Assembly: GCF_001026905.1 (NCBI RefSeq)
Contig: NZ_LAQL01000009.1
Coordinates: 1-64,000 of the forward strand
Length of the DNA stretch: 64,000 nucleotides
Direction: 5' to 3'
From: Kiloniella spongiae
GTDB taxonomy: Bacteria; Pseudomonadota; Alphaproteobacteria; Kiloniellales; Kiloniellaceae
A program made the position numbers and the translations under genes. The notes below the pieces were generated by a model. The model saw only the letters and a program-made list of their open reading frames with translations, ran no database searches and was not told where the DNA came from. The stretch's first letter is position 1. Every line of letters begins with the position of its first letter. This document shows, one piece after another, positions 8,036 to 56,298 of this stretch.

Positions 8036-8317
8036 TTAAGATTTCAAATCTTTCAATAATCTTCTGAATTCCTCTTTTCTATCCATGGGTATCAGACGCC
8101 AATCACATCCTATTATCGCGCCTTCCAATGCATAGAGATAATTCACCGATAGCCTGTGTTCGTCACAAAACCGAAAGTATAACCGTCGAAACACCTCTTC
8201 CGTACCGAGATCGTTTAGTTGGTCAGACGATGTGATCCCAATATCGACCAATTGTGCAACCGACTTAGGTCCCAGATTTTTTAAGGCAAGAAGATCTTCT
8301 TTTGGATCACTGTTCAT
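8036..8317 (-). CDS. Stand-alone TfoX C-terminal domain protein
   Basis: From the ATG at 8317 (MNSDPKED) the product is 93 aa and matches the TfoX/Sxy C-terminal helix-hairpin-like domain: LKNLGPKSVAQLVDIGI, then a central YFRFCDEH and LNYLYALEGAI-like helix. The longer ORF to 8518 runs antisense through the 5' part of recX and its extra residues look non-coding. The TfoX N-terminal domain is absent, as in many proteobacterial stand-alone copies. It is divergent from recX with about 75 bp between starts. No strong Shine-Dalgarno is seen. Confidence 0.82.
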   Translation of the reverse strand: MNSDPKEDLLALKNLGPKSVAQLVDIGITSSDQLNDLGTEEVFRRLYFRFCDEHRLSVNYLYALEGAIIGCDWRLIPMDRKEEFRRLLKDLKS

Positions 8318-8391
8318 TTTAAATTTTGGACAAGGGTCATTTTGACATAATTTATTCAACAAAAGAATTGGCCCCGGAACATCGCCGTGGC

Positions 8392-8994
8392 ATGTATAAG
8401 AACATGATGGAACGGTCAGAAAAAAACAACCGCGAACAACCCAAACGTAAAGTTCCGCGAAAAGCCACAGCAAAATACCTGGGCAACGTTGCTCGATTTT
8501 ATCTGGAACGCTACGCAACGACAGAGGTTGGCTTGCGCCGCTATCTTATGCGCAAGGTAAATCTTTCTGCCAAGGAACATGGCACAGTCCCTCAAGAAGG
8601 GACAGAGATTATAGAAGATTTGATCTCTAAATTCCGCGACTTGAACTTTCTGAATGACGAACGCTATGCCGAAGGTCGTAGCGGTAGCTTACACCGCAAG
8701 GGCATGTCTCTTCGTGCTATTCGGCAAGATCTATCCCTCAAAGGTGTCTCCGAAGATCTCATTAACAAATCCATAGATCTTATCAGAGAAGAAAGCAGCA
8801 ATCCAGATCTGGAAGCTGCGATCTCCTATGCCCGAAGACGTCGCCTCGGCCCTTACCGCACTGACGACAAACGTGAAGAACGTCGAGACAAAGATCTCGC
8901 CGCGCTCGGCCGGAAGGGCTTTTCTTTTGTCATCGCTGAACGTGTAATTCTCGCCGTTGATATTACTGAACTGGAAGATGAAGCTGGTCTTTAG
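8392..8994 (+). CDS. recX: Regulatory protein RecX
   Basis: RecX binds RecA filaments and limits their extension. The product is about 201 aa from the ATG at 8392; ATG codons at 8404 and 8407 are alternatives, and no Shine-Dalgarno decides. The family signature is seen in YLERYATTEVGLRRYLMRK, FLNDERYAEGRSGSLHRKGMS split over about residues 85-110, and LSLKGVS. A three-helix repeat layout and high Arg/Lys content fit. recA is not in this window. It lies head-to-head with the TfoX-C gene. Confidence 0.85.
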   Translation: MYKNMMERSEKNNREQPKRKVPRKATAKYLGNVARFYLERYATTEVGLRRYLMRKVNLSAKEHGTVPQEGTEIIEDLISKFRDLNFLNDERYAEGRSGSLHRKGMSLRAIRQDLSLKGVSEDLINKSIDLIREESSNPDLEAAISYARRRRLGPYRTDDKREERRDKDLAALGRKGFSFVIAERVILAVDITELEDEAGL

Positions 8995-41138: not shown

Positions 41139-41310
41139 ATTTAGTAAAAAATACAATAAAGACAAAACATCTCAGCCAATTTCACAAACACGCTTAAGGG
41201 CTTATTAATGAATCGAGACCACACTCATAGAATGCATTTAGTACAGGTGTGCATATTTTCATTAGTGCGGTTTGAAATTGTTTCCTTACTTCAGGAGGTA
41301 TTTCAGGACT

Positions 41311-41607
41311 ATGAAATTGGAAGTATCCGACCAAACGGCAACAATCGAATTAGCGCCTAGTTTGGATATATTTGTTGCAGAGGAGTTGCTCGCCTTATTT
41401 GTCGATGCCGACAATAAAAGCCTCGACCTGAACATTAATGCTGGAGGTGTGGAAAAAGCCTCCACCGCATGCCTACAGATTATTCATTCCGCTGCTGTCA
41501 GTTGCATAGAAGCAGATCGTACTTTTCAGATCACAGAAGCTTCTGATGTCCTGGTTACAGCCTTTAAAGATCTGGGCCTTTATTCAAAAATCACCATGCG
41601 GAGCTAG
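41311..41607 (+). CDS. STAS-domain protein, first gene of the che operon
   Basis: About 98 aa from the ATG at 41311; AGGAGG lies 12 bases upstream and AGGA closer. The STAS fold is recognised from LEVSDQTATIELAPSLDI and the helix following strand 3, LNINAGGVEKASTACLQII. The usual phosphorylatable Ser position is occupied by S51-T52. STAS proteins head many che operons of the F7 type in other proteobacteria. It may be a partner-switch antagonist for the HATPase encoded at the far end. It lies 6 bp before cheY. Confidence 0.8.
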   Translation: MKLEVSDQTATIELAPSLDIFVAEELLALFVDADNKSLDLNINAGGVEKASTACLQIIHSAAVSCIEADRTFQITEASDVLVTAFKDLGLYSKITMRS

Positions 41608-41613
41608 AAAAAT

Positions 41614-41979
41614 ATGGGGTTAAAAGTTTTAACAGTAGATGATTCAAAAACAATGCGAGACATGGTCTCTTTCACTCTCAAAGGTGCCGGACACAATGTA
41701 ATTGAAGCGTCAGACGGTTGTGAAGCCCTTCGTGTCCTTGGTGGTGATCGTGTTGATTTGGTCATAACAGACGTAAACATGCCTAACATGGATGGTCTGA
41801 CTCTCTGCAAAGAAATTCGATCCAACCCAACGCATAGACTGACACCGATCTTGGTTTTGACGACAGAATCAGATGGTAACAAGAAAAACGAAGGACGAAG
41901 TGTCGGGGCAACAGGTTGGATTGTGAAACCGTTTAATCCCGAAAAATTGCTTCAGGTAGTCAATAAGGTTTGTCCATAA
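41614..41979 (+). CDS. cheY: Chemotaxis response regulator CheY
   Basis: A 121-aa single receiver domain with the acidic pair D9-D10, phosphoacceptor D53 (TDVNMP), switch T83 and K105 (VKPF), so it is phosphorylation-competent. It lies directly before cheA and is the expected target of CheA. Whether it addresses the flagellar motor or another output is not told by sequence. Confidence 0.94.
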   Translation: MGLKVLTVDDSKTMRDMVSFTLKGAGHNVIEASDGCEALRVLGGDRVDLVITDVNMPNMDGLTLCKEIRSNPTHRLTPILVLTTESDGNKKNEGRSVGATGWIVKPFNPEKLLQVVNKVCP

Positions 41980-42091: not shown

Positions 42092-44335
42092 GTGAGTACC
42101 AACGATTTCGACCTTGATCAGTTCAAAGCAACTTATTTCGAAGAATGTGCTGAACTGCTTATAGATGCAGAAACAAGACTTGCCGACCTACAACACAACC
42201 CAGAGAATGTTGACGCAGAAGATTTAAATGCGATCTTTCGTGTTGTCCATTCTGTAAAGGGTGGTGCCGGTGCATTTAGTTTCGATCAACTCGTTGGTTT
42301 TGCGCATATATACGAAGCCCTTCTTGATAAAATGCGTCAAGGTGAAATCCAAATTACCGAAGACATCGTCACATTATTGCTTTCCGCCAATGATATCCTG
42401 ACAAACCTTATTCAGGCAGCACAAAACGGCATTACTGTGCCGGAAGACGATTTTATCGACATCAAAAATAAACTGAACCTGCTTGCATTTGATCAACCCA
42501 TAAGTTCTTCGGTCGAGGAAGATGCGACAGAGATCACAACGCCTGAAGAAAAAAGCGCAAAAAAATATATCATTTCGTTCACCCCTAAACCCGAACTCCT
42601 GCAACATGCGAACGAACCTCTTCTTCTTGCTCGCGAAATGAAAGCACTTGGTGAGCTCACAACCATCGTCAACACTGATCGCTTGCCTTCCATCCAAAAA
42701 ATTATCTCCGATGAAGCTTACTTTTCCTGGGTTTTCGAGTTGGTCTCCGATTGCAGCCTTACAGACGTGGAAGAGGTATTCGAATTCGTCACAGAAGATT
42801 GCGATCTGGAAATAAAAATAGACGGCGATCCGAAAAAAGAAGAAATCTCTTCGCAATCAACATCATCTGAATCCACAGAAAACAGCGACGAAAAATCACT
42901 GGAAACAACAAAAAAACAAGCTGTTGAGGCAATGCAAGCGCCGACAATTCCAACATCAGTACCAGCAAAACCAACTCCGGCAGGGAATAATCAGACTTCT
43001 CAACGCGTCTCTTCCATCCGGGTAGAACTGGATCGAGTAGACCGACTGGTGAACATGGTTGGCGAACTCGTCATTACCCAAGCAATGTTGCGCCAACAAG
43101 TTGACAATCTTCCCTCGGAACTAGCTGCCTTTATGGCCAAAGGCTTTGAAGATCTTGGGATGCATACACGGGAAATTCAGGAATCAGTCATGGCTGTCCG
43201 TATGCAGCCCGTCAAATCCGTTTTTGCTCGTATTCCAAGATTAGTACGGGAACTTGCCTCAAAACTCGGCAAAAAAGTAGAACTCGAAACATCTGGGGAA
43301 CACACAGAAGTTGATAAAACAGTTATAGAACAACTTTCTGATCCTTTAACTCATATGATCCGTAACTCGCTTGATCACGGGATTGAAGAAACGCCTGAAG
43401 ATCGGAAGACTGTCGGAAAACCAGAGCTCGCAACTGTCACCCTATCCGCAGAACATCGATCAGGGCGCATTCATATTATCGTGACGGATGATGGCCGTGG
43501 CATCAACCGTGAGCGGGTCAGGTCCAAAGCAATAGAAAAAGGCATTATCAATGCAGACGAAAACCTTACTGACGAAGCCATTGATGACCTGATATTCAGT
43601 CCCGGATTTTCAACAGCAGAAGAAGTGACCGACGTCTCAGGTCGAGGTGTTGGCATGGATGTTGTTCGTCGAAACATCAGTAATCTTGGGGGCCGCATTT
43701 CTGTTCACTCTACGCCAGGCAAGGGAACCAAGTTTGTTATGTCCCTGCCCCTTACCCTTGCCGTTTTGGATGGGATGGTTGTTGCCGTGGGTAGAGAGAA
43801 ATTCATTATCTCACTTACATCTATTATCGAAAGCTTGCGTCCGGCAAAAGCAGAACTTCACAGGCTTTCGAATGGAGCGAATGTTGTTTCCTTACGTGGG
43901 GAATACATTCGATTAATTAAACTGCATCAGCTGTTCAATATCCCTGGTGCCCGCAAAGATCCAAGCAAAGCCCTCGTTGTTGTTGTTGAAATCGAAGGCG
44001 GGAAACAAGTTGGTATTTTGGTCGATGAACTACTTGGCCAACAACAGGTTGTCATCAAGAGTCTTGAAGAGAATTATGACCCGGTCGACGGTATTTCCGC
44101 AGCAACGATTCTGGGTAACGGGATGGTTGCCCTTATCCTTGATGTGGATGGCCTTGATGCTATGGCACGGCAAGTAAACCATCGATCTGATCCAAGTGAT
44201 CTTGAAGATACGGATACGGTACTTCTCTCAGAGAATTCGAAATCATTAACTCACCCCCCTGATCTAGCTGAAAAAGAGATCGACAATCCTCTGTCAAATG
44301 AAACTCAAGATCTTGAAGTAATGGAGCAAAATTAA
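42092..44335 (+). CDS. cheA: Chemotaxis histidine kinase CheA
   Basis: A 747-aa cytoplasmic kinase from a GTG at 42092, with GGGGGAAAA upstream. Order of domains: Hpt (P1) with the phosphorylated H53 in HSVKGGAG; a P2-like domain at about 165-250; an acidic/Ser-rich linker; P3 dimerisation (SSIRVELDRVDRLVNMVGELVITQ); P4 ATPase with MIRNSLDHGIE, DDGRGI and GRGVGMDVVRRN; and P5 CheW-like from about 615. All catalytic boxes are intact. Its stop overlaps the cheW start (one shared base), so translation is coupled. Confidence 0.97.
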   Translation: MSTNDFDLDQFKATYFEECAELLIDAETRLADLQHNPENVDAEDLNAIFRVVHSVKGGAGAFSFDQLVGFAHIYEALLDKMRQGEIQITEDIVTLLLSANDILTNLIQAAQNGITVPEDDFIDIKNKLNLLAFDQPISSSVEEDATEITTPEEKSAKKYIISFTPKPELLQHANEPLLLAREMKALGELTTIVNTDRLPSIQKIISDEAYFSWVFELVSDCSLTDVEEVFEFVTEDCDLEIKIDGDPKKEEISSQSTSSESTENSDEKSLETTKKQAVEAMQAPTIPTSVPAKPTPAGNNQTSQRVSSIRVELDRVDRLVNMVGELVITQAMLRQQVDNLPSELAAFMAKGFEDLGMHTREIQESVMAVRMQPVKSVFARIPRLVRELASKLGKKVELETSGEHTEVDKTVIEQLSDPLTHMIRNSLDHGIEETPEDRKTVGKPELATVTLSAEHRSGRIHIIVTDDGRGINRERVRSKAIEKGIINADENLTDEAIDDLIFSPGFSTAEEVTDVSGRGVGMDVVRRNISNLGGRISVHSTPGKGTKFVMSLPLTLAVLDGMVVAVGREKFIISLTSIIESLRPAKAELHRLSNGANVVSLRGEYIRLIKLHQLFNIPGARKDPSKALVVVVEIEGGKQVGILVDELLGQQQVVIKSLEENYDPVDGISAATILGNGMVALILDVDGLDAMARQVNHRSDPSDLEDTDTVLLSENSKSLTHPPDLAEKEIDNPLSNETQDLEVMEQN

Positions 44336-44913
44336 TGGAAAGTAACAGCCTCGTTGCCCAAGAAAATAAAGCTGTCGCACCAATATCAGACGCAAAGCCG
44401 CAAAACGTAAATGCTGACGGAACCGGACTTGCTCTGGCCGAGAGTTCAGGACAGGAGCAATACATCACCTTTACTGTCGGAGAACAGGAATACGGTGTGG
44501 ATATTATGTCTGTTCGAGAGATCAAGGGATGGGTGGAGACAACTCTTTTACCCAACACACCGGATTATATGCGCGGCGTCTTAAATCTTCGTGGCGTTAT
44601 TGTCCCCATTTTTGATCTTAGATGCCGTTTCGGACTTGGAGAAACAGAGGCAACAAACCTGCATGTCATTGTGATCATTGCCGTAAAAGAGCGGATGGTC
44701 GGTATTCTTGTTGACACCGTCTCGGACATTCTAACGGTATCAAATTCCGATATCAGAGACGTTCCCAAAATGGAAACACTGATCGAGGAAGAATATTTGT
44801 CTGGATTAGTAACAATCGAAGAGCGAATGGTTGCTTTACTCAATCAAGAAAAACTTTTCGACACCCAAATCATAGAAAAAGGGATCTCAGTCGGTCTGAC
44901 TGAAGAAACCTGA
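44335..44913 (+). CDS. cheW: Chemotaxis coupling protein CheW
   Basis: A 192-aa CheW. A flexible 35-residue N-terminus precedes the beta-barrel core: QYITFTVGEQEYGVDIMSVREIKGW, MRGVLNLRGVIVPIFDLR, then VGILVDTVSDILTV. It links CheA to the MCPs. It starts on the last base of cheA. An intergenic stretch of 120 bp follows before the first MCP. Confidence 0.96.
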   Translation: MESNSLVAQENKAVAPISDAKPQNVNADGTGLALAESSGQEQYITFTVGEQEYGVDIMSVREIKGWVETTLLPNTPDYMRGVLNLRGVIVPIFDLRCRFGLGETEATNLHVIVIIAVKERMVGILVDTVSDILTVSNSDIRDVPKMETLIEEEYLSGLVTIEERMVALLNQEKLFDTQIIEKGISVGLTEET

Positions 44914-45033: not shown

Positions 45034-47736
45034 ATGGTTACTTTTTTAAACAATCTTCCAGTGAGGTTTAAATTCAGTATCGCCCTATTGATACCGATTT
45101 TAGGCCTTCTGTTTTTCTCTATCTACACTGTATTAGACAAAAACGCGACGGTTCAATCCATGAAAAAGATCAGGCATATTGCTGAATCTTCTCTGGATAT
45201 TGGGACCTATGTCCATAATCTGCAAATTGAACGTGGTACATCCGCAAGCTATATAAGTTCCAAAGGTTCCCGTGACATCAAGGGTCAGCTAGAAGATCGT
45301 CGCCGCCTCACCAATGAATCTCAACAAGCCCTCGTCGAAAAGCTTGAAATTTTACTCACGGAATCAACCAGCGATGTTTTCTCAAGTAAAATAAACAAGG
45401 TTAAGTCCAGATTTACAGAGCTGGAAAAATACCGTTCCGATGTAACCGATCTAGAGCTGACAGTCGCTGAAATGGCGAGTTTTTATTCTGGAACCGTGGC
45501 TGATCTGATCAATATCGTCGCTGAAATGCCCCTGCTAAGTAATGATGGGGCTATATCGAATCAAATCACCGCTTTAATTGCCCTTCTCCAAGCAAAGGAA
45601 AATGCTGGCATCGAGCGCGCTGTTGGCACCGCCGGATTCGCCTCTGGTTCTTTTGATACAGCCAGATATAAGCAACTCGCAAATTTGATCAGCAAGCAGG
45701 AAAGCTATTTTTGGATTTACCAAAACTACGCAACACCAAAGCTGAAAGCCCTCTACACAGACATGGTTACCAATCCAAGCTCTATCCGTTTAGAAGAGAT
45801 GCGTAAAGTCATTGCAAACTATCCAGATAGCTTTGATCTCGCTGGTATCAGCGGACAGGATTTATTTAATACAACATCTGATCGTCTGGAAATCATAAGA
45901 GAAATAGAGATCATCGCAGAAGAACTGCTCATCGAAAATATTGAACACGTTGAACATGAAGCCTTTACGATCGAACTTATATTCCTGTGCATCACAATTG
46001 CCGTCCTCATCATTGCAATAGGTTTAGGCATTATTATTACCTTGGGTGTCAGCCGTGCTCTCACTCAACTGGTGACACTGGTCACCGACAACGATGCAGA
46101 AGTAAATATCAATCCTGATCGGAAAGATGAGATCGGTGTTCTTGGCAATTCCCTTCTCGCTTTTGTTGAAGAGGCAAAAGAAAACGAGCGAATTGCCATA
46201 GCAAACACCAGAATAAAATCAGCTTTGGATAGTTGCCAAGCCAATGTAATGGTCGCGAATAACGATTTTGACATCATCTACATGAATGATGCCGTTCTCG
46301 ATATGATGCGCAAAGGCGAATCGGATATCCGACAGGATCTCCCTGGATTTGATACATCAAAACTCCTTGGCGATAGCATTGATCGCTTTCACAAAAACCC
46401 TGCCCACCAACGCTCTATGCTCGAGGCCTTAACAACAACCTATCAAGGGAAAATCGAGGTTGGAGGAAGAACTTATGAACTAATTGCGACTCCAATTAAT
46501 ACCGAGAATGGTGATCGTTTGGGAACAGTTGTTGAATGGAAAGACATCACAGCCGAACTCGCTATACAGGCTGAAGTCGACTCTATGGTTCAAGCCATAT
46601 CCAGTGGAGATTTCACCAAATCTCTATCCCCAGAAGGTAAAGAGGGCTTTATGCTGGCTCTGACCAATGCTCTAAACTCTCTGAACAAAAATGTCAGTGC
46701 AGTGATCGATGATGTAGCAACCGCTCTATCTTCTCTCTCCAGAGGAGATCTTACTCACGAGATTACAACCAGTTACACTGGCATGTATGAGACCCTCAAA
46801 CAGGATGTAAACCAAACATCTAAGCGCCTATCTGAAACTGTTGGTGATATTATTTCAACAACAGATGAAATAGGTTCGGCATCGACCGAAATTGCCTCTG
46901 GATCAATGGATCTATCCCAACGGACAGAAGCACAGGCATCTAGCCTACAGCAAACGGCAGCCTCTATGGAAGAGATGTCAACAACGGTGAAGCAGAATGC
47001 CGATAGTGCTCAACAAGCAAACCAGATGGCTCTGAATGCAACAGAGACTGCCGAACGTGGTGGCGGCGTTGTTAAAGATGCTGTTGTTGCGGTGACAGGT
47101 ATAGAACAAGCATCTCAAAAAGTATCAGACATCATTGGTGTGATTGATGAAATCGCTTTCCAAACCAACCTTCTTGCCCTCAACGCCGCTGTCGAAGCTG
47201 CAAGGGCAGGCGAAGCTGGTAAAGGCTTTGCTGTTGTCGCTGCCGAAGTTCGAACACTGGCTCAACGTTCCGGTGAAGCAGCCAAAGATATCAAAATCTT
47301 GATTGTTGAAGCCAATGACCAAGTTAAAGAAGGCGTTACTCTTGTTAGATCTACCGGAGATACTTTGTCCGAAATTGTAGATTCATCCAAACGTGTGGCA
47401 GATATTATTTCCGAGATCGCTGCGTCCAGTCGTGAGCAAGCTACCGGAGTAGAGGAAATCAATACAGCAATAACCGCCATGGATGAAATGACCCAGCAGA
47501 ACGCGGCATTGGTCGAAGAAAGTTCAGCCTCAGCAAGAACACTGGAAGAACAAGCCGAAGGGCTTTCTGAAATGATTGGTTTCTTTAAAACTGACGGAAA
47601 TAGCAACAGAGAACCTAAGCCAAAGCCGCAGGACATCCCCAAAATGGCGTCACAAAAACCCTCAAAGACTGTAACAACTCTTAAGCCAGCAACAGCAACT
47701 GCCATTGAAGACGATGATGACTGGTCAGAGTTTTAA
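45034..47736 (+). CDS. Chemoreceptor with NIT-type periplasmic domain, PAS and CheR-tether pentapeptide
   Basis: A 900-aa MCP. TM1 about 14-33; periplasmic nitrate/nitrite-sensor-like (NIT) helical domain about 50-300 ([13 protein letters not shown]); TM2 about 315-340; HAMP; a cytoplasmic PAS at about 393-512 ([21 protein letters not shown]); further HAMP-like segments ([16 protein letters not shown]); then the MA domain with tip [17 protein letters not shown]. The C-terminus ends DDDDWSEF, matching the xWxxF tether that recruits CheR/CheB. NIT plus PAS suggests it reads both an external ligand and internal energy state; the ligands are not shown. Confidence 0.94.
46209..47595 (+). repeat. 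Duplicated PAS-HAMP-MA segment, copy 1
   Basis: The last half of the NIT-type MCP (RIKSALDS to FFKTD) matches copy 2 at 49131-50517 codon for codon, both 1387 bp, offset 2922 bp. Protein identity is very high while many third positions differ, so this is a diverged paralogous repeat under protein-level constraint. Confidence 0.88.
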
Positions 47737-47804
47737 AAACCAAAGCTATGACTAATACCAAACAACAATCACTACAGAAATCATGTTAGATAACGGAGAA
47801 TATA

Positions 47805-50681
47805 ATGCGTAGTGCAAATAACCGTTTTTCCCTGAAAATTGCGTATAAACTGCCAATACTGTTTATTTTAATAGCAATGATTTCTGTCGTATCTATCGGC
47901 ACATTCAGCGTCATAAATTCTTCAGACACGTTGATTTTGCAAAAACAGCAAACTTTAACAGCATTGGCGGAAGCACGCAGTTCTTCTTTAAGACAATATC
48001 TGGAATCAATCCGAGAAGACATCCTCATCACAGCAACCAATAACAATGTTCATAACGCTATAACAAGGTTTTCCGAAGGCTTTAAAGACGAAAAAGAACT
48101 CCATAGTGATCCTCTTGCATCCCTCCAATCCGTTTATATAAATGAAAAAAATCTTACTGATACAACGTCTTTCGGGAACAAAGAAGCGCTAGGGCAAAAA
48201 CATCTGTTTGACGGACCGTCTGTCGCTGAAGGAATTTATCACACACAACATAAACGCCTTCATCCTTGGTTTCGCCGAATGCTGGAAGGTCGTGGGTATT
48301 ACGACATATTTCTTATTAACCCAGAGGGAGATGTTGTTTATACCGTTTTCAAAGAGCTTGATTACGCAACCAATCTTCTCGACGGTAAATATAACAATAC
48401 TGGGTTGGCTCAGGTATTCAAAGCTACCCTTTCGAATAACGAGCCCGGAAGCGTTAACTTTGTAGATTTTGCACCCTATGCCCCAAGTAATGGTACGCCG
48501 GCTAGTTTTATTGCAACACCAATTACCACTATAAACGGTTTCGTAGGTGTTCTCGTTTTCCAAATGCCTATTGATAGAATTGACCACATTTTACAACTCA
48601 GTGCAGGTATGGGGGCATCAGGCGAAACTTATCTGGTTGGTAGTGATTTCCTCATGCGAAGCGATTCCAGATTTTCAGAAGAATCAACAATTCTGAAAAC
48701 AGAGGTTAAAACTGCAACTGTGGAAAAGGCTCTGAATGGAAAATCAGGTATCGAAGTAACACCCGACTATCGTGACATCCCCGTTCTTTCTGCCTTTCAA
48801 CCATTTGAATTTGAAGGAATCAGATGGGCATTAATGGCAGAGATTGACGAGGTTGAAATGCTTGCTCCTGCACATGACGCACGTCTATTCATTCTTATGA
48901 TCGGTGGAATTGTTCTCGTAATTGTAGGCCTGCTTGGATGGTTATTTGCCCGCTCTATTATCCGCCCCTTACAAAAATCAACATCTGAAATGCTCCAACT
49001 TGCTGAAGGGGACAAATCATTTGCTATTTCCGGATTGGAACGTCGTGACGAAATCAGGGATATTGCTTCTGCATTGCAAACCTTTAAAGACAATGCGGTT
49101 GAACAAGACCGATCAGCAGCAGAAAACATGCGGATCAAATCAGCACTTGATAGCAGTTCAGCGAATGTCATGGTCGCGGACAATAACCTTGACATCATCT
49201 ATATGAATGACGCTGTTCTTGAGATGATGCGCGAGGGTGAGACTGATATTCGTAGGGATCTTCCCGGTTTCGATACAAATAAGCTCCTTGGTGACAGTAT
49301 TGACCGCTTTCATAAAAATCCAGCACACCAACGTTCTTTGCTCGAAACTTTGAATACGACATATCAAGGCCGCATCAAAGTCGGAGGCAGGACCTATGAT
49401 TTGATAGCAAACCCCATCATCACACAAGACAAAGAACGTCTGGGAACCGTTGTTGAATGGGCAGATGTCACAGCTGAACTCGCTATTCAGGATGACGTTG
49501 ATGAAATGGTTAAAGCTATTTCAGAAGGTGACTTCACAAAGTCCTTAGTAGCAGACGGTAAAGAAGGCTTTATGCTAGCCTTGACCAACGCTCTGAACTC
49601 CCTCAACAAGAATGTCAGTGATGTTGTTGATGATGTGGCAACCGCTCTCTCATCTCTCTCACGAGGGGACCTCACGCACGAAATTACAGCCAATTACACT
49701 GGGATGTACGAAACCCTCAAACAGGATGTGAACCAAACCTCAAAACGTCTATCTGAAACTGTCGGCGAGATAATCACTACCACTGATGAGATTGGATCTG
49801 CCTCTACCGAGATATCCTCAGGCTCTATGGATCTGTCTCAAAGAACAGAAGCACAGGCATCCAGCCTGCAACAAACTGCGGCCTCTATGGAAGAGATGTC
49901 AACCACCGTGAAGCAGAATGCAGACAGTGCTCAGCAGGCAAATCAGATGGCCTTGAATGCAACGGAGACCGCCGAACGAGGAGGAGAAGTTGTCCAGGAA
50001 GCCGTTGTTGCCGTGACTGGAATTGAACAGGCATCACAGAAAGTTTCCGACATCATCGGAGTTATTGATGAGATTGCCTTCCAGACGAACCTTCTTGCCC
50101 TCAATGCTGCGGTTGAAGCCGCCAGAGCGGGAGAAGCAGGTAAGGGATTTGCTGTGGTTGCAGCCGAGGTTCGAACTTTGGCGCAACGTTCCGGTGAAGC
50201 AGCTAAAGATATCAAAACCTTAATTATAGAAGCCAACGACCAGGTTAAGGAAGGTGTTACTCTGGTTCGTTCAACCGGGGATACTCTGTCCGAAATTGTT
50301 GATTCATCCAAACGTGTTGCTGATATCATCTCCGAAATTGCAGCCTCTAGCCGGGAACAGGCATCCGGCGTTGAAGAGATCAATGCAGCAATCACAGCAA
50401 TGGATGAAATGACCCAGCAAAACGCTGCTTTGGTTGAAGAAAGCTCGGCTGCGGCCCGTACCCTGGAAGAGCAAGCAGAGGGGCTCTCCGAGATGATTGG
50501 TTTCTTTAAAACAGACGATACAAGACGAGTTAATAGTCCCCAAAAACCAAAAGAGGTTAAACAGGCGCCCCCTGCGGTGACGCAAAAACCTCAACCGCAA
50601 CAAAAGAATGTTACAGCACTCAAATCCACCGCTTCAACAGCAGTCGCCATCGAGGAGGAGGAGGACTGGTCCGAATTTTAA
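47805..50681 (+). CDS. Chemoreceptor with Cache-type domain, PAS and CheR-tether pentapeptide
   Basis: A 958-aa MCP. TM1 about 17-37; dCache-like periplasmic domain about 40-350 ([18 protein letters not shown], with GETYLVGSD); TM2 about 362-385; HAMP (RSIIRPL); a PAS at about 443-560 nearly identical to that of the preceding MCP; HAMP repeats; and the MA domain. The end EEEEDWSEF again gives xWxxF. From the PAS to the MA domain it aligns with its neighbour without indels, so only the sensory half differs. Confidence 0.94.
49131..50517 (+). repeat. Duplicated PAS-HAMP-MA segment, copy 2
   Basis: Counterpart of the segment at 46209-47595, in the same orientation and with no length change. A recombination between the two would delete exactly 2922 bp and leave one in-frame chimaeric receptor. 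Confidence 0.88.
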
Positions 50682-50734: not shown

Positions 50735-51643
50735 ATGACATCATCAGGACTCGCTTCATCAGTAACAAGAAAATCAGCTTCTTCTAGTATAGAGGCCGCA
50801 GATACTAATGAGCGCGAGTTTCCTTTCTCTGACCAAGAGTTTAAAACTCTCACCCAGATGGTTTATGATAGAACCGGTATTGTCCTGAAAGATAACAAAA
50901 AAAACATGGTTTATGGTCGTCTCGCCAGACGATTACGCAAACTAAAAATGTACTCTTTTAAAGAATATTTGACTTATCTGGATAGCCCCGACGGTGCCAA
51001 TGAAACAGGCATGTTGATAAACGCTATCACCACAAACCTGACCAAGTTCTTTAGAGAGTCCCATCATTTCAAACATTTGTTTACTGCCTGTGAAAAAATC
51101 ATTCAGGCCCAAACAAATCGAGGCGAAGACCGTCGACTTCGCCTCTGGTCGGCAGGTTGTTCGTCTGGCGAAGAGCCCTACTCTATCGCCATCGTCATGA
51201 ACGAACTCCTAAAGAGAACCCCTTCGATAGATATTAAAATTTTGGCGACAGATCTTGATACAGGCATGCTGCAAACTGGCATGTCCGGGATTTATAGCAA
51301 GAAATCTGTCGAAAACATGCCAGATAAATTCAGAACGAAATATACCCAGGAAATATCTGAATCACAGGTTCAAATGAGTTCAGAGTTACGTAGTTTGATC
51401 ACCTTTAAACAGCTCAATCTACTGGAAAAATGGCTCATGAAAGGACCTTTTGATGTCATTTTTTGCCGAAATGTCATGATTTATTTCGACCAACCGACAA
51501 AGATATCACTTGGTAAACGTTATGCCGAATTACTCAGGACAGATAGCTGGCTCTATATTGGCCATTCTGAAAGCTTACCAGAGGAAACTAACCTAAAACT
51601 CATTGGTAAAACCATCTATCAACGTCAGGATCGGAGAGGATAA
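50735..51643 (+). CDS. cheR: Chemoreceptor glutamate methyltransferase CheR
   Basis: A 302-aa CheR with a 35-residue Ser/Ala-rich lead, the helical N-terminal domain (MVYDRTGIVLKDNKKNMVYGRLARRLR) and the SAM-binding domain (LRLWSAGCSSGEEPYSIA, ILATDLDTGML, FDVIFCRNVMIYFD). It methylates MCP glutamates. The C-terminal xWxxF motifs on the two upstream MCPs are plausible docking sites for its beta-subdomain. One base separates it from cheD. Confidence 0.96.
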   Translation: MTSSGLASSVTRKSASSSIEAADTNEREFPFSDQEFKTLTQMVYDRTGIVLKDNKKNMVYGRLARRLRKLKMYSFKEYLTYLDSPDGANETGMLINAITTNLTKFFRESHHFKHLFTACEKIIQAQTNRGEDRRLRLWSAGCSSGEEPYSIAIVMNELLKRTPSIDIKILATDLDTGMLQTGMSGIYSKKSVENMPDKFRTKYTQEISESQVQMSSELRSLITFKQLNLLEKWLMKGPFDVIFCRNVMIYFDQPTKISLGKRYAELLRTDSWLYIGHSESLPEETNLKLIGKTIYQRQDRRG

Positions 51644-51644
51644 A

Positions 51645-52322
51645 ATGTTACATAAAACAGACATAAAAAAAGCTCCTCCGTTCAACAAAGTTCCGGATCA
51701 TTTTTATTCGGATGACACAGATCTTCGTCATCCTCACGAAGGGGAACCGAAGAGGTTTTTTGATCCTAAATTCAAACATTATGCCGTGAAAATAATGCCT
51801 GGAACTCATTACGTAACATCCAGACACGATGAAATGCTCGTCACCACATTAGGGTCATGTGTAAGTGCCTGCGTCCGCGATACAGCACTCGGTGTCGGAG
51901 GGATGAATCACTTCATGCTTCCAGAAAGTGACACAGGTAAATGGGGCGGAAGCAGTGCGGTGATGCGATATGGTAACCATGCCATGGAAACCTTGCTGAA
52001 CGATATTCTCGCTATGGGTGGAGCAAAAAATCGCATGGAAATTAAGCTCTTTGGCGGTGGTCACGTTCTTAACTCATCCAACCTGGTCGGCGAGAAGAAC
52101 GTTCAGTTTGTTGAACGGTATTTAAAAAACGAACACCTCGCACCTTCGTCACAACACTTAGGGGGAAACCAAGCGAGGAAGATCATTTTTTTCCCCAAAA
52201 CCGGTGTCGTTAAAATGAAGCTTCTCCCCCATGCATTTGATGAAGAAGTCGTTCAAAACGAGAGAAAACTCAGTACCAATCTTAATCACCAAGAGATTGA
52301 AGGCAGTGTTGAACTATTTTGA
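51645..52322 (+). CDS. cheD: Chemoreceptor glutamine deamidase CheD
   Basis: A protein of 225 aa from the ATG at 51645, which has GGAGAGG seven bases upstream; the longer ORF overlapping cheR is unlikely. The catalytic triad context is intact: TLGSCVSACV (Thr, Cys) and GGMNHFMLP (His). An N-terminal extension of about 50 residues and a C-terminal tail ending SVELF are additional to the usual core. The tail resembles the end of the MCP/CheZ-like protein (DIELF) encoded two genes on. Confidence 0.94.
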   Translation: MLHKTDIKKAPPFNKVPDHFYSDDTDLRHPHEGEPKRFFDPKFKHYAVKIMPGTHYVTSRHDEMLVTTLGSCVSACVRDTALGVGGMNHFMLPESDTGKWGGSSAVMRYGNHAMETLLNDILAMGGAKNRMEIKLFGGGHVLNSSNLVGEKNVQFVERYLKNEHLAPSSQHLGGNQARKIIFFPKTGVVKMKLLPHAFDEEVVQNERKLSTNLNHQEIEGSVELF

Positions 52323-52335
52323 GTAGGAATTTATT

Positions 52336-53403
52336 TTGACCTCAATTAAAGTCCTTATCGTTGATGATTCAGCTCTTATGAGAGAGCTTTTGACGGCCCT
52401 TCTGTCCCAAGATCCAACCATTGAGGTTGTTGGATCTGCGACGGATCCCTATCAGGCACGCCAAATGATCAAACAGTTATTACCTGACGTCATTACGCTT
52501 GATATCGAAATGCCCAGAATGGACGGATTATCTTTTTTGGAAAAGATAATGACATTAAGGCCCATGCCTGTAGTGATGGTGTCTTCGCTAACACAACAAG
52601 GTGCAGAAGCAACACTCAATGCCCTTGAGCTTGGTGCCGTGGATTTTTTCCCAAAGCCCAAGCTAGATATGAAGCGCGGTATTGAAAAGCGTGCCGATGA
52701 ACTTATTCACAAGATCAAGACCGCCGCACAGGCAAAGGTAAAAACTCTCGAACGCGAACAGGATACACCGCTTGCCTTAAACCCTCTTTCAAACATTAAG
52801 TTTTCTACAACTGAAAAAATCATTGCCATCGGCGCTTCAACTGGTGGAGTTGAAGCCTTACGTGTCGTTATCAAGAATTTACCGGCCAATAGCCCTGCTG
52901 TTCTTGTAACCCAACACATGCCTGAAAAGTTTACAAAAACCTTTGCCGAACGCCTGAACAAAATTTCAGCTGTTTCCATCAGCGAGGCCAAACACGGCGA
53001 ACGCGTACTGCCAGGACACGTTTATATTGCGCCAGGTGGTAAGCACTTAAAATTACATAGATCAGGTGCAAACTACCTCTGCCAATTAACTGACGAGGAA
53101 GCAGTATCCGGCCACAAACCTTCCGTTGATGTCCTTTTCCGTTCTACCAGTGAAGCAGCTGGGAAAAATGCTATTGGCGTTATTTTGACTGGCATGGGCA
53201 AAGATGGCGCGGCAGGCATGTTGGAATTACGAGAAGTCGGAGCAAAAACCTTTGGGCAGGATGAAGCCTCTTGCGTTGTCTATGGCATGCCTAAGGCAGC
53301 GTACGACATTGGCGCTGTTGAACATCAAGTTTCCTTAAACAAGATAACCGAAGCAATGTTGAATGCCTGCGGCGCAGCAAAAGATCGACATATACGCGTC
53401 TAA
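52336..53403 (+). CDS. cheB: Chemotaxis methylesterase/response regulator CheB
   Basis: A 355-aa protein from a TTG at 52336 with AGGA seven bases upstream. The receiver has D10-D11 and phosphoacceptor D56 (LDIEMP); the C-terminal esterase has GASTGGVEAL (Ser), TQHMP (His) and LTGMGKDGAAG (Asp). It demethylates and deamidates MCPs when phosphorylated by CheA. The operon order cheR-cheD-cheB is complete. Confidence 0.96.
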   Translation: MTSIKVLIVDDSALMRELLTALLSQDPTIEVVGSATDPYQARQMIKQLLPDVITLDIEMPRMDGLSFLEKIMTLRPMPVVMVSSLTQQGAEATLNALELGAVDFFPKPKLDMKRGIEKRADELIHKIKTAAQAKVKTLEREQDTPLALNPLSNIKFSTTEKIIAIGASTGGVEALRVVIKNLPANSPAVLVTQHMPEKFTKTFAERLNKISAVSISEAKHGERVLPGHVYIAPGGKHLKLHRSGANYLCQLTDEEAVSGHKPSVDVLFRSTSEAAGKNAIGVILTGMGKDGAAGMLELREVGAKTFGQDEASCVVYGMPKAAYDIGAVEHQVSLNKITEAMLNACGAAKDRHIRV

Positions 53404-53478
53404 ACACTGAAAGATCTAAACACTGAAAGAGTCGTGTACGAACGTGAGGATTATACCTCATATAGTAAGGAGAAACGA

Positions 53479-54678
53479 ATGGCTATGGTAGCACAACCCG
53501 AAATCTATGCGGATAAACCCCCAAACAACGCAGAGGATAATCCTGAGCAGGATACACTATCCATTCAGGACGATACCATTGATCATAGCCTGCCAGTCAT
53601 TCCAGGGAGTCCACCTATTGGCAGCAACGAAGGGATGCATGATTTACTGACATTATGGGTCGGTCTATCAGATGTACAAAAAAGAACCTTTAAAGCCCTG
53701 ACAAAAGAAGTCGAAGTGGCAAGCAACCTCGTAGAAACATCAACAGAGGAGCTCTCCAAAAATTTTCAAGAGCTGGCAAATTTCTCTCGGAAACAAGCCG
53801 ACGATCTGAAATCAATCATTGAATCTGCCAGCACCGTGACCGTCGACGACAAAGAAATCACTTTGACAGATGTCCTGCACGTTATGGAAGAATCGATTAA
53901 TACTGTGGTTGAACAAATATTACACGTGTCTAAACACGGAATGTCCATGACCTATGCAATGGAAGATCTCCTTGGAAATGTCGAAAAAGTTCAAGCACGG
54001 GTGACTGATATTGAAACAGTTACCAAACAAACAAACCTGCTGGCTCTTAATGCAAAAATAGAGGCTATGCGAGCTGGAGACGCCGGTGCCGGATTTTCCG
54101 TTGTTGCAGATGGCGTGCGAGAACTTTCAAGTTCTATTAACGATCTTTCTGGTCAAATCAGGCGAGAGATTTCTGATGTCTCCAAATCTTTAGCAGACAG
54201 TCAAGGAAATCTAAGAGAAGTTACCTCTGTTGACATGACTGAAAACATTATGGCTAAAGAACACATCGAAAAAATCATGACTTGCCTCATAGATCGTAAC
54301 GATTCCTTTAGTAAAACCATTCAAAATTCTGCAAGTAATTCAGACGACATGACACGCCAAGTCTCTGAAATGATCACCGGAATTCAATTCCAGGATAGAA
54401 CTAGCCAACGCCTTGGTAATATTCTGGATGCCTTGAAGGTCTTGTCCGAGGCCGGGGAAGAAATGAAAGCCAAAACGGAAGAACAGGTTGGTGAACAGAT
54501 AACACCTGAATTGGATAGAGAATGGCTTAATCAGCTGATCAATGGCTTCCATTTGGGCGAAATGCGTGAACGTTTTATCATGCATGCCCTCTATGATGAC
54601 GATATGGCAATTGATGATGAGGCGAACGGTACTCAAAGCCAACCAGACGATGACGAAGACGATATAGAGTTGTTCTAA
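53479..54678 (+). CDS. Soluble MCP-like protein with a CheZ-type phosphatase motif
   Basis: A protein of 399 aa from the ATG at 53479 (AAGGAG six bases upstream). No signal peptide or membrane helix. An acidic N-terminus leads to a long helical region. Residues 184-216 resemble an MCP hairpin tip, [21 protein letters not shown] second motif, residues 302-312 ([11 protein letters not shown]), matches the CheZ active site F-Q-D-x-T-x-Q, with D306 and Q310 at the catalytic D143/Q147 spacing of E. coli CheZ. The tail is very acidic and ends DDIELF, recalling the CheY-binding CheZ tail. CheY-P phosphatase activity is inferred. Next to cheB in the operon. Confidence 0.8.
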
Positions 54679-54722: not shown

Positions 54723-55031
54723 ATGGACTATTCGTTTAAACCAGACGGAACCTTGCTAAAATGCGTAATGACAGGTGAATTCACCTTTACTGATCATCCC
54801 ACTTTTCGCAGCATGATTGACGAAGCAGTAAAAACAGGTGCCCGTTCAATACAATTAGATCTGCAAGACGTAGAATATATTGATTCAGCAGGTCTAGGCA
54901 TGTTTTTAGTGGCCCATGAACGATCAGGCGAAGAAGGATGGACGTTTTCTATTAGCAATCCCAGAGAAAAGGTTCAAAAGATGTTCACCCTCGCAAGGCT
55001 GGAAACCATTGTAACCATAGCAAACGGTTAA
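54723..55031 (+). CDS. STAS-domain anti-sigma-factor antagonist-like protein
   Basis: A 102-aa STAS protein with the canonical phosphorylation site DSAGLGMFL, S55, on which an RsbW-type kinase would act. The full beta/alpha order is present from MDYSFKPDGTLLKCVMTGEF on. It lies between the MCP/CheZ-like gene and the PP2C response regulator, an arrangement typical of partner-switch modules. It probably binds the HATPase protein encoded at 56347-57246 when unphosphorylated. Confidence 0.9.
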   Translation: MDYSFKPDGTLLKCVMTGEFTFTDHPTFRSMIDEAVKTGARSIQLDLQDVEYIDSAGLGMFLVAHERSGEEGWTFSISNPREKVQKMFTLARLETIVTIANG

Positions 55032-55107: not shown

Positions 55108-56298
55108 ATGCCCAATAGTTCAAACGACATACCTTTTGAGACCATCGCAAATCGGCAAGTTTTAGTTGTCGATGATGTCAAACTATTGCGCGATCTCATT
55201 ACCAGCATTTTACGACAGGCTGGCTTTAACAATATCGAACACGCAGAAAATGGCCAAGAAGCAATGCTCAAAGTCACGGACAATCCTCCGGACATTATTA
55301 TCTTGGATCTCATGATGCCAATTATGGATGGCATGGAGGTCTGCCGCTTGGTTCGAGAAATTGAAGATACGGCATCTATTCCCATTATCGTTCAAACTGC
55401 CATGCATGATAATGAAGAGCGCCTGAAAGCCTTTGCAGCGGGAGCCAGTGACCTTGTCACAAAACCAGTGAACGCCCTTGAACTTGTGATCCGGACAAAA
55501 CTACACCTCAAGAACCTAATTTTGACGGAAAATAGAGAAAAATATCGCGCACGTGTTGCCGATGAACTAGCAACAGCAAAAGACGTCCAGCAAAATATTT
55601 TACCCTCCCCACAACACCTCCGGGAAATACGCGAACAAACGGGGCTTAATATTTCCTCTGTCTGTCAGCCATCATCAGAACTCGGAGGGGATTTTTGGGG
55701 CGCACGCATCTTAGCAAATGGCTCAATCGGCTTCTACGTTACAGATTTCTCAGGACATGGTGTTGTTTCGGCCCTGAATACCATCAGATTACACACACTT
55801 TTATTCAACGTAGGCGAAGCATGGCAAAAACCAGACCAGCTCTTGTCTGATATCAATCAGAACCTTTGTGACATGTTACCAACTGGGCAGTATGCAACAA
55901 TGATTATTGGTTTAATTTCTCCTGAGAACAATACATTAAGCTACGCTGGTGCTGCGGCTCCTCCTCCAATTTATGGCGAATGGGAAAAGCCCGAAAAGTT
56001 TAGCTATCTTGATACAACAGGGTTACCACTAGGTGTTAGTAAAATTGCAACTTACGATCTTCAAACAGTTCCTTTTACCAAAAACCATTTACTCTTTTCC
56101 TTTAGCGATGCCTTAATTGAAACCAAGCTAAATGATGGCACGTTTTTGGAAGGAGAAGAGTTGATAAAGCTCGTAAAAGATCTCACAAATAGTAGAGCTA
56201 ATCCTCAACTTTTGAATCAGCTCATTTCTTCTTTTTTTGAAAATGGTGGCGATGATTTGAGAGACGATTTAACAGCAATCTGTTTTGATTATTTATAG
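55108..56298 (+). CDS. Response regulator with PP2C (SpoIIE/RsbU-type) phosphatase domain
   Basis: A 396-aa protein. Receiver at about 15-135 with D22-D23, phosphoacceptor D67 (LDLMMP) and VTKPV lysine; a short coiled linker (RARVADELATAKDVQQNILP); then a PP2C domain with the metal aspartates in GGDFWGA, VTDFSGHG, SFSDALIE and DDLTAICFD. Phosphorylation by CheA or another kinase would control dephosphorylation of the STAS partner. It is the last gene of the operon and is convergent with the HATPase gene. Confidence 0.94.
   Translation: MPNSSNDIPFETIANRQVLVVDDVKLLRDLITSILRQAGFNNIEHAENGQEAMLKVTDNPPDIIILDLMMPIMDGMEVCRLVREIEDTASIPIIVQTAMHDNEERLKAFAAGASDLVTKPVNALELVIRTKLHLKNLILTENREKYRARVADELATAKDVQQNILPSPQHLREIREQTGLNISSVCQPSSELGGDFWGARILANGSIGFYVTDFSGHGVVSALNTIRLHTLLFNVGEAWQKPDQLLSDINQNLCDMLPTGQYATMIIGLISPENNTLSYAGAAAPPPIYGEWEKPEKFSYLDTTGLPLGVSKIATYDLQTVPFTKNHLLFSFSDALIETKLNDGTFLEGEELIKLVKDLTNSRANPQLLNQLISSFFENGGDDLRDDLTAICFDYL

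Follow-up and report, generated by a model that had tools for sequence, protein, structure and literature searches.

The window analysed here comprises positions 1 to 64,000 of the forward strand of contig NZ_LAQL01000009.1, from the Kiloniella spongiae assembly GCF_001026905.1, and contains a chemotaxis (che) operon. Positions 53479..54678 of this window encode a protein of 399 amino acids, termed P0001, which carries both the signalling tip of a methyl-accepting chemotaxis protein (MCP) and a motif characteristic of the phosphatase CheZ, and whose nearest named relatives belong to Kiloniella species. A preliminary interpretation based on this DNA alone, hereafter the sequence-only reading, had described P0001 as a soluble MCP-like protein with a CheZ-type catalytic motif and a possible phosphatase activity, and the open reading frame (ORF) and residue numbers that it assigned to the tip, the FQDRTSQ motif, D306, Q310 and the terminal DDIELF were exact. 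The gene and the features of its product, the helical modules being delimited with an AlphaFold2 (AF2) model, are as follows.

53479..54678, + strand: gene of the soluble MCP-like/CheZ-like protein P0001, 399 amino acids plus stop, ATG start at 53479
53467-53472, + strand: ribosome-binding site aaggag of the P0001 gene (from sequence)
53626..53832, + strand: residues 50-118, predicted N-terminal helix of the upper (CheZ-like) two-helix module, family-specific (AF2 model and alignments)
53833..53862, + strand: residues 119-128, predicted hinge of two short strands joining the modules (AF2 model), close to an edge of the natural deletion in L024/L059
53863..54231, + strand: residues 129-251, predicted MCP tip hairpin module, missing or replaced in tip-less relatives (AF2 model and alignment)
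54028..54081, + strand: residues 184-201, MCP signalling tip (sequence and MCPsignal match)
54238..54489, + strand: residues 254-337, predicted C-terminal helix of the upper module (AF2 model)
54388..54408, + strand: residues 304-310, CheZ-type motif FQDRTSQ with D306 and Q310 (sequence, alignment, profile comparison and helix phase)
54511..54591, + strand: residues 345-371, conserved helical element past the bundle, a possible docking element (alignment and AF2 model)
54658..54675, + strand: residues 394-399, conserved C-terminal tail DDIELF (sequence and alignment)

The Pfam MCPsignal domain matched residues 157-303 of P0001 with 76.2 bits against a cut-off of 34.6. No other Pfam domain scored above its cut-off, so that a ligand-binding domain was not found, and no transmembrane helix was apparent by eye, as the sequence-only reading had also held. 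The AF2 model (mean pLDDT 75) predicts a helical hairpin from residue 50 onwards, built of helices 50-118, 129-199, 204-251 and 254-337 and interrupted at one level by the strand pair at 119-128, with the CheZ-type motif in the upper module and the tip in the lower one; residues 1-48 were modelled with low confidence. Helical phase places D306 and Q310 at an estimated 100 and 151 degrees, respectively, from the hydrophobic face of the C-terminal helix, and because both lie away from this face, neither residue, whose burial would have spoken against the sequence-only reading, is predicted to be buried. By eye, N-terminal membrane-like segments are present in the relatives at loci L083, L099, L130, L136 and L137, and soluble and membrane-anchored forms of the family both seem to exist. 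The C-terminal tail of P0001 was also considered as a CheR-binding pentapeptide and rejected as such, since it lacks an aromatic residue at the second position; that motif (DWSEF) is carried by the two MCPs of the operon.

Relatives of P0001 preserve the motif almost without exception. In an alignment of P0001 and the proteins of 81 further loci, D306 and Q310 were found in 82 of 82 rows and the last Phe in 80, a count for the motif residues that is inflated by the provenance of 57 rows (L054-L110), obtained in a scan with two patterns that included QFQDRT[SK]Q, and by duplicate genomes that yield the same proteins (L116/L060, L117/L062 and L134/L091). Within this set, partly chosen by the motif, Q303, Q305, D306 and Q310 were the most conserved positions of the C-terminal helix, and the acidic tail was likewise conserved. 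In 73 of the 78 rows with a tip, the tip Asn and the Asp were separated by the same distance; the other five were off by one.

To answer the bias of the motif scan, three further searches were performed with the motif left out of the query. Two of them used alignments (A5 and A8) built from motif-bearing members with the motif columns removed, and both recovered the same family. With only the N-terminal helix as query (A5), 25 of 385 alphaproteobacterial genomes yielded 28 matches. One of these, L168, proved to be an ordinary MCP that lacks the motif; of the 27 other stretches, 26 presented the D...Q pair, in the tip-less match L167 as VDRRRQ, the exception being the second copy of the tandem protein L133. 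The N-terminal region of beta- and gammaproteobacterial members (A8) gave 28 matches in 274 gammaproteobacterial genomes, of which five were weak and had neither tip nor motif. The remaining 23 were MCP-like, one of them (L177) being the gene of L083 already contained in the query alignment, and all 23 presented QFQDxxxQ exactly 118 residues from the tip Asn to the motif Phe, with a tail ending in FF (22) or MF (1). The third search took as query the operon's response regulator with a SpoIIE-type serine phosphatase domain (RR-PP2C), which had matches in 142 of 369 gammaproteobacterial genomes. Among the best 30 matches examined as loci, an MCP-like ORF recognised by its tip pattern adjoined the RR-PP2C gene in eight, not including the strongest match (L235), and in all eight it contained QF[EG]DxxxQ at +118 and a tail of the form [IV][DE]LF, with a short STAS-like ORF between the two genes as judged by eye.

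As a control, 26 ordinary MCPs were inspected at the corresponding positions. None presented Asp at tip+120, nine presented Gln at tip+124 and none presented both. A bare D...Q pair did occur near the motif position in five of the 26 and a QDxxxQ overlapping the tip itself in six, so that D...Q spacing alone was discarded as evidence. The near-invariance of the motif in the family and its absence at that place in ordinary MCPs indicate that it is not a local chance occurrence. Nor does the hybrid of the sequence-only reading stand as a local one: P0001 is a member of a widespread family to which, judging by gene order, the McpA-like chemoreceptors also belong.

The relationship to CheZ extends beyond the catalytic residues. 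The conserved signature of CheZ is described as AXXF(Y)Q followed by DXXXQ in the available text of PMC7750401, and the F(Y)Q-DXXXQ catalytic motif is present in P0001. Alignment with hhalign of a profile of the family C-terminal helix (28 rows) to one of six CheZ proteins returned a probability of 90.1 (P = 1.6e-6) across 50 aligned columns, in which the two FQD triplets coincide, whereas the same helix of 24 ordinary MCPs and the N-terminal helix of the family reached only 1.9% and 0.9%, respectively. Searches of whole genomes with Pfam CheZ also singled out the family gene, placed by coordinates, as a match below the cut-off in 5 of 7 genomes from the beta/gamma group, although in 0 of 11 from the Alphaproteobacteria. 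P0001 resembles CheZ (PF04344) in the FQDxTxQ motif, in a hairpin that is predicted in the monomer models of both P0001 and the tip-less protein of L059, in an acidic tail with a hydrophobic end and, in many beta/gamma loci, in the position of the family gene beside cheY. The three CheZ proteins encoded in the Kiloniella genome end in TQDDIDALFD, SQDDIDALMGFD and SQDEIDALFD, to which the DDIELF tail of P0001 is similar, with a putative role in binding. P0001 differs from CheZ in being about twice as long, in scoring below the profile cut-off and in carrying the MCP signalling tip.

The tip itself is not kept by all relatives at the same operon place. Five relatives without it retain the D...Q pair and a tail ending in LF: L059 from the same genus, L071 from Curvivirga, L073 from a Methylocystaceae metagenome-assembled genome, L075 from Terasakiella pusilla and L172 from genome G099. 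Each of the five genes lies after cheB, and in four cases the operon is of the same type; no STAS gene was seen in loci L073 and L075, and at L172 cheB is the only che neighbour on that side. In the L059 protein (also L024, genome G008), encoded in the same operon type, residues ~125-247 are missing, which corresponds roughly to the lower module; the motif and a tail EIELF remain, and its model is a plain two-helix hairpin. On a tree built from shared columns the tip-less forms require three changes, but a single clade is not rejected (p-AU 0.119), and we therefore do not regard them as proven separate losses. In genome G099 (L172:4702-5988 and 8057-8566), one cluster holds two members of the family: a tip-less one next to cheB, of 169 amino acids with VDRRRQ and the tail EDVLF, and a long one with FQDAIKD and the tail DIELF, a possible split of function between two genes.

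The genes surrounding P0001 in the operon, identified through Pfam or named from sequence, are listed below.

41272..41607, + strand: STAS protein of the anti-sigma factor antagonist type, first gene of the cluster (Pfam)
41614..41979, + strand: CheY, the proposed substrate, phosphorylation site context TDVNMP (named from sequence)
42092..44335, + strand: CheA (H-kinase_dim, 68.8 bits)
44335..44913, + strand: CheW (named from sequence)
45034..47736, + strand: MCP ending in -DDDDWSEF (named from sequence)
47805..50681, + strand: second, similar MCP ending in -EEDWSEF (named from sequence)
50735..51643, + strand: CheR (Pfam)
51603..52322, + strand: CheD ending in -GSVELF (ORF with a TTG start, the true start probably lying further in)
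52336..53403, + strand: CheB (Pfam)
54723..55031, + strand: second STAS protein (Pfam)
55108..56298, + strand: RR-PP2C, site context LDLMMP, the alternative candidate substrate (Pfam)

The gene order is hence STAS, cheY, cheA, cheW, two MCPs, cheR, cheD, cheB, the P0001 gene, STAS and RR-PP2C. No cheZ, cheC or cheX gene was seen in the operon, in agreement with the sequence-only reading, and a search of the whole genome for CheX and CheC at E ≤ 0.1 found neither. Apart from the numbers of receptor and cheW genes, this order is that published for F7 clusters, in which an mcpA-like receptor gene follows cheB and precedes the STAS and serine phosphatase genes (Ortega 2020, PMC7184735; here and below, published work is cited from the portions of its text that were available). 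P0001 therefore stands at the place of the mcpA-like receptor, whose role in the F7 system is called unclear in the same paper. Stage 1/2 F7 clusters are described there as having cheY without cheZ, and mcpA-like genes as being lost upon recruitment of the F6 cheY/cheZ pair.

A STAS gene, an RR-PP2C gene or both lie beside the P0001-family gene in the window and in 22 of 27 alphaproteobacterial loci (L054-L080), several of the others being cut contigs. Among the 29 loci L081-L109, 19 have the family gene directly upstream of cheY, and a CheY ORF was present in the fetched flank of 22 of the 23 gammaproteobacterial family genes recovered with the N-terminal region. One beta/gamma locus of this kind (L083) has the order family gene, CheY, STAS-like ORF, CheA, MCP, CheW, CheR, CheD and CheB. 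Because these loci resemble the Shewanella che2 locus, as listed in PMC9855816, and not its F7 locus, the P0001 family is wider than F7.

Several other features of these neighbourhoods were observed. The two adjoining MCPs of the operon (45034-50681) have very similar C-terminal halves, both ending in the CheR-type pentapeptide, and are probably a tandem duplication. The tails of CheD (52302-52319) and of the MCP-like protein (54658-54675) share the form [VIA][ED]LF within one operon (loci L054-L078). CheD presents [ED][LM]F in its last six residues in 23 of the 25 loci with a detected CheD and an MCP-like protein ending in [ED]LF, and where the MCP-like protein ends in FF, CheD also ends in FF in 3 of 11; the common tail suggests a common docking partner. 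A gammaproteobacterial subgroup with the tail [IV]ELF (L095, L100 and L106-L109) lies, by eye, between ParA-like and NUDIX hydrolase/PtsP-like genes (L095 being cut) and not in a full che operon; L100, L106 and L108 each have a CheA-like ORF upstream. In another gammaproteobacterium (L252:2-559), an ORF that resembles CheC by eye lies beside a trio of MCP-like, STAS-like and RR-PP2C genes and a CheY-like gene.

With moderate confidence, we interpret P0001 as a CheZ-type phosphatase on a chemoreceptor scaffold, with the CheY of its operon as the most likely substrate. A phosphatase acting on a phosphorylated receiver is favoured because the D...Q pair and the tail are conserved, the tip is dispensable and the C-terminal helix is related to that of CheZ. 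The published picture of stage 1/2 F7 clusters, with cheY unaccompanied by cheZ and mcpA-like genes disappearing once the F6 pair arrives, also speaks for it (PMC7184735). The protein would consist of two modules in one long helical hairpin, the MCP tip hairpin (129-251) and the upper two-helix module (50-118 with 254-337). The tip hairpin would be able to dock in a receptor-CheA-CheW array, while the upper module would form, in a dimer, a four-helix bundle like that of CheZ. On the surface of this bundle D306 and Q310 would point away from the core and reach into a phosphorylated receiver's active site, where Q310 would position the water, and the acidic tail may tether the phosphorylated regulator as the CheZ tail does. 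The presumed substrate, the operon's CheY, is not accompanied there by a dedicated CheZ; its leading position rests on the placement of the family gene directly upstream of cheY in many beta/gamma loci and on the CheY site DVNMP.

Several results weigh against this interpretation. In a 696-residue tandem protein (L133, genome G067), where the entire MCP-like unit occurs twice, the first copy keeps QFQDRNSQ but the second has lost the motif; the Gln is lost in the long member of G099 mentioned above; and the tip-less member of that genome (L167/L172) keeps the D...Q pair without FQ. Of the two profiles proposed as checks in the sequence-only reading, that of MCPs matched P0001, but Pfam CheZ did not at E ≤ 1. 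Among 44 relatives, 12 matched Pfam CheZ at E ≤ 1, none above the cut-off (best 24.0 bits against 30.7, E = 4e-5), and these matches are weak on their own because coiled-coil families reach similar values (ATG17_like, 5.5e-5). The C-terminal helix profile retrieved no CheZ chain from the PDB at E ≤ 10, and structure comparison returned MCPs and generic coiled coils, CheZ not being among the 50 matches listed, an outcome to which the tool's own note gives no deciding weight. Furthermore, the Kiloniella genome carries three true CheZ genes above the cut-off elsewhere, one adjoining cheY and flagellar-looking genes (L052), and true CheZ was also found in all 18 of the carrier genomes that we chose from the 57 scanned loci. 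The idea of a missing phosphatase, which the sequence-only reading raised from the genes of the operon, thus fails in the genome-wide sense, and P0001 would serve a private pathway instead of a general gap.

The most serious alternative is that P0001 is a CheZ-type phosphatase of the receiver of the downstream RR-PP2C, and hence of a partner-switch output, and not of CheY. We judge it unlikely but weighty, because RR-PP2C or STAS genes adjoin the family gene in most alphaproteobacterial loci and a motif-bearing MCP-like gene adjoins RR-PP2C in the eight gammaproteobacterial loci described above. The mcpA-like, STAS and RR-PP2C genes are moreover described as moving together in PMC7184735. Against this stand the beta/gamma loci with the family gene directly upstream of cheY and the CheY ORFs in almost all gammaproteobacterial flanks. 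The phosphorylation sites point the same way, that of the operon CheY being DVNMP, which agrees with the E. coli CheY site apart from one residue, versus DLMMP in the RR-PP2C receiver.

A second alternative, which appears decidedly unlikely, holds that P0001 is an ordinary cytoplasmic chemoreceptor of the McpA/CttP type and that FQD is a structural feature of this class. It would account for the MCPsignal domain and for published observations on McpA-like proteins that do not favour a phosphatase. In Shewanella oneidensis, McpAso forms polar clusters with CheA3/CheW3, the F6 kinase, and not with the F7 one; its overproduction raises swimming as that of ordinary MCPs does, and its deletion has no effect on swimming (PMC9855816). 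P. aeruginosa McpA is listed for chloroethylene taxis, its binding being unknown (PMC9864684). The McpAso data fit a receptor, and since the protein clusters with the F6 kinase they also leave the F6 CheY as a possible third candidate substrate, by analogy with this localisation. They lend partial support to the placement of P0001 in the receptor array by the sequence-only reading, in that a McpA-like protein clusters with an array, docking in Kiloniella being presumed. An ordinary receptor is nevertheless hard to reconcile with the missing ligand-binding domain, with the tip-less relatives after cheB that keep motif and tail, and with conserved polar Asp and Gln residues estimated to face the solvent. 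It also accords poorly with the report that deletion of the McpA-like protein left the F7 array unaffected in P. aeruginosa and V. cholerae (PMC7184735). Least probable of all, P0001 might bind phosphorylated CheY through motif and tail without catalysis, as a sink or as a scaffold concentrating it at the array, a role compatible with a conserved acidic tail resembling those of the Kiloniella CheZ proteins and with the similar CheD tail of alphaproteobacterial operons, but one that would not call for a catalytic Gln kept at the same distance in almost every member.

The phosphatase interpretation of P0001 bears on the McpA-like receptors (P. aeruginosa McpA/CttP PA0180, V. cholerae VCA1088 and S. 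oneidensis SO_2117; PMC7184735, PMC9855816), to which P0001 is likened by gene order and by gammaproteobacterial genomes, not by the sequences of those three proteins. They occupy the same place, between cheB and the STAS and RR-PP2C genes, and have an MCPsignal domain and a conserved C-terminus that is not a CheR pentapeptide, as in P0001 (IELF); a transmembrane region is predicted for those of P. aeruginosa and V. cholerae, whereas by eye P0001 has none. VCA1088 is counted as 24H, and the deletion that left arrays unchanged is given as the only experimental report on it in the available text of PMC7534058. These proteins have been published as receptors, and the available portions of PMC7184735, PMC7534058 and PMC9864684 do not mention the CheZ motif that P0001 has, while the word CheZ has 0 occurrences in that of PMC9855816. 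More broadly, no published mention of a CheZ motif in McpA-like proteins was found among titles and the beginnings of abstracts of the papers listed, a coverage that leaves out most subscription papers.

The CheT protein of Sinorhizobium meliloti (Agbekudzi 2024, as described in PMC12654446) has, like the P0001 family, a DXXXQ motif, a predicted CheZ-like fold and a gene in an alphaproteobacterial che operon, and it resembles the tip-less relatives in outline, a likeness by description and not by sequence. It differs from P0001 in its reported action on one CheY out of two and its reported binding to CheR. When a tip-less profile was searched against 249 genomes from the Bradyrhizobium order, the matches were MCP-like frames of great length and others the size of CheZ; none of them was read or identified as CheT. 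Another soluble chemoreceptor, that of Thermotoga maritima (3g67), is not known to have a phosphatase role. As a tentative and rather doubtful extension of these data, the McpA-like "chemoreceptors" of F7 and related clusters across the Proteobacteria might be array-docked CheZ-type phosphatases and not receptors, with the tip in one array and a catalytic stalk 17 heptads up quenching the phosphorylated regulator of another pathway; CheZ and CheT may then be tip-less descendants or siblings.

If correct, this would provide one answer both to the role of McpA-like proteins in the F7 system and to the presence of cheY without cheZ in stage 1/2 F7 clusters (PMC7184735). It would likewise explain the loss of McpA-like proteins upon recruitment of the F6 cheY/cheZ pair, their hard-to-assign heptad class and the array that remains intact after their deletion. 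Receptor arrays could then hold an enzyme in receptor form, which would open a direct route of cross-talk between chemotaxis and the stress-response partner switch. Given that the motif recurs in widespread receptor-like proteins, such proteins may be CheY off-switches.
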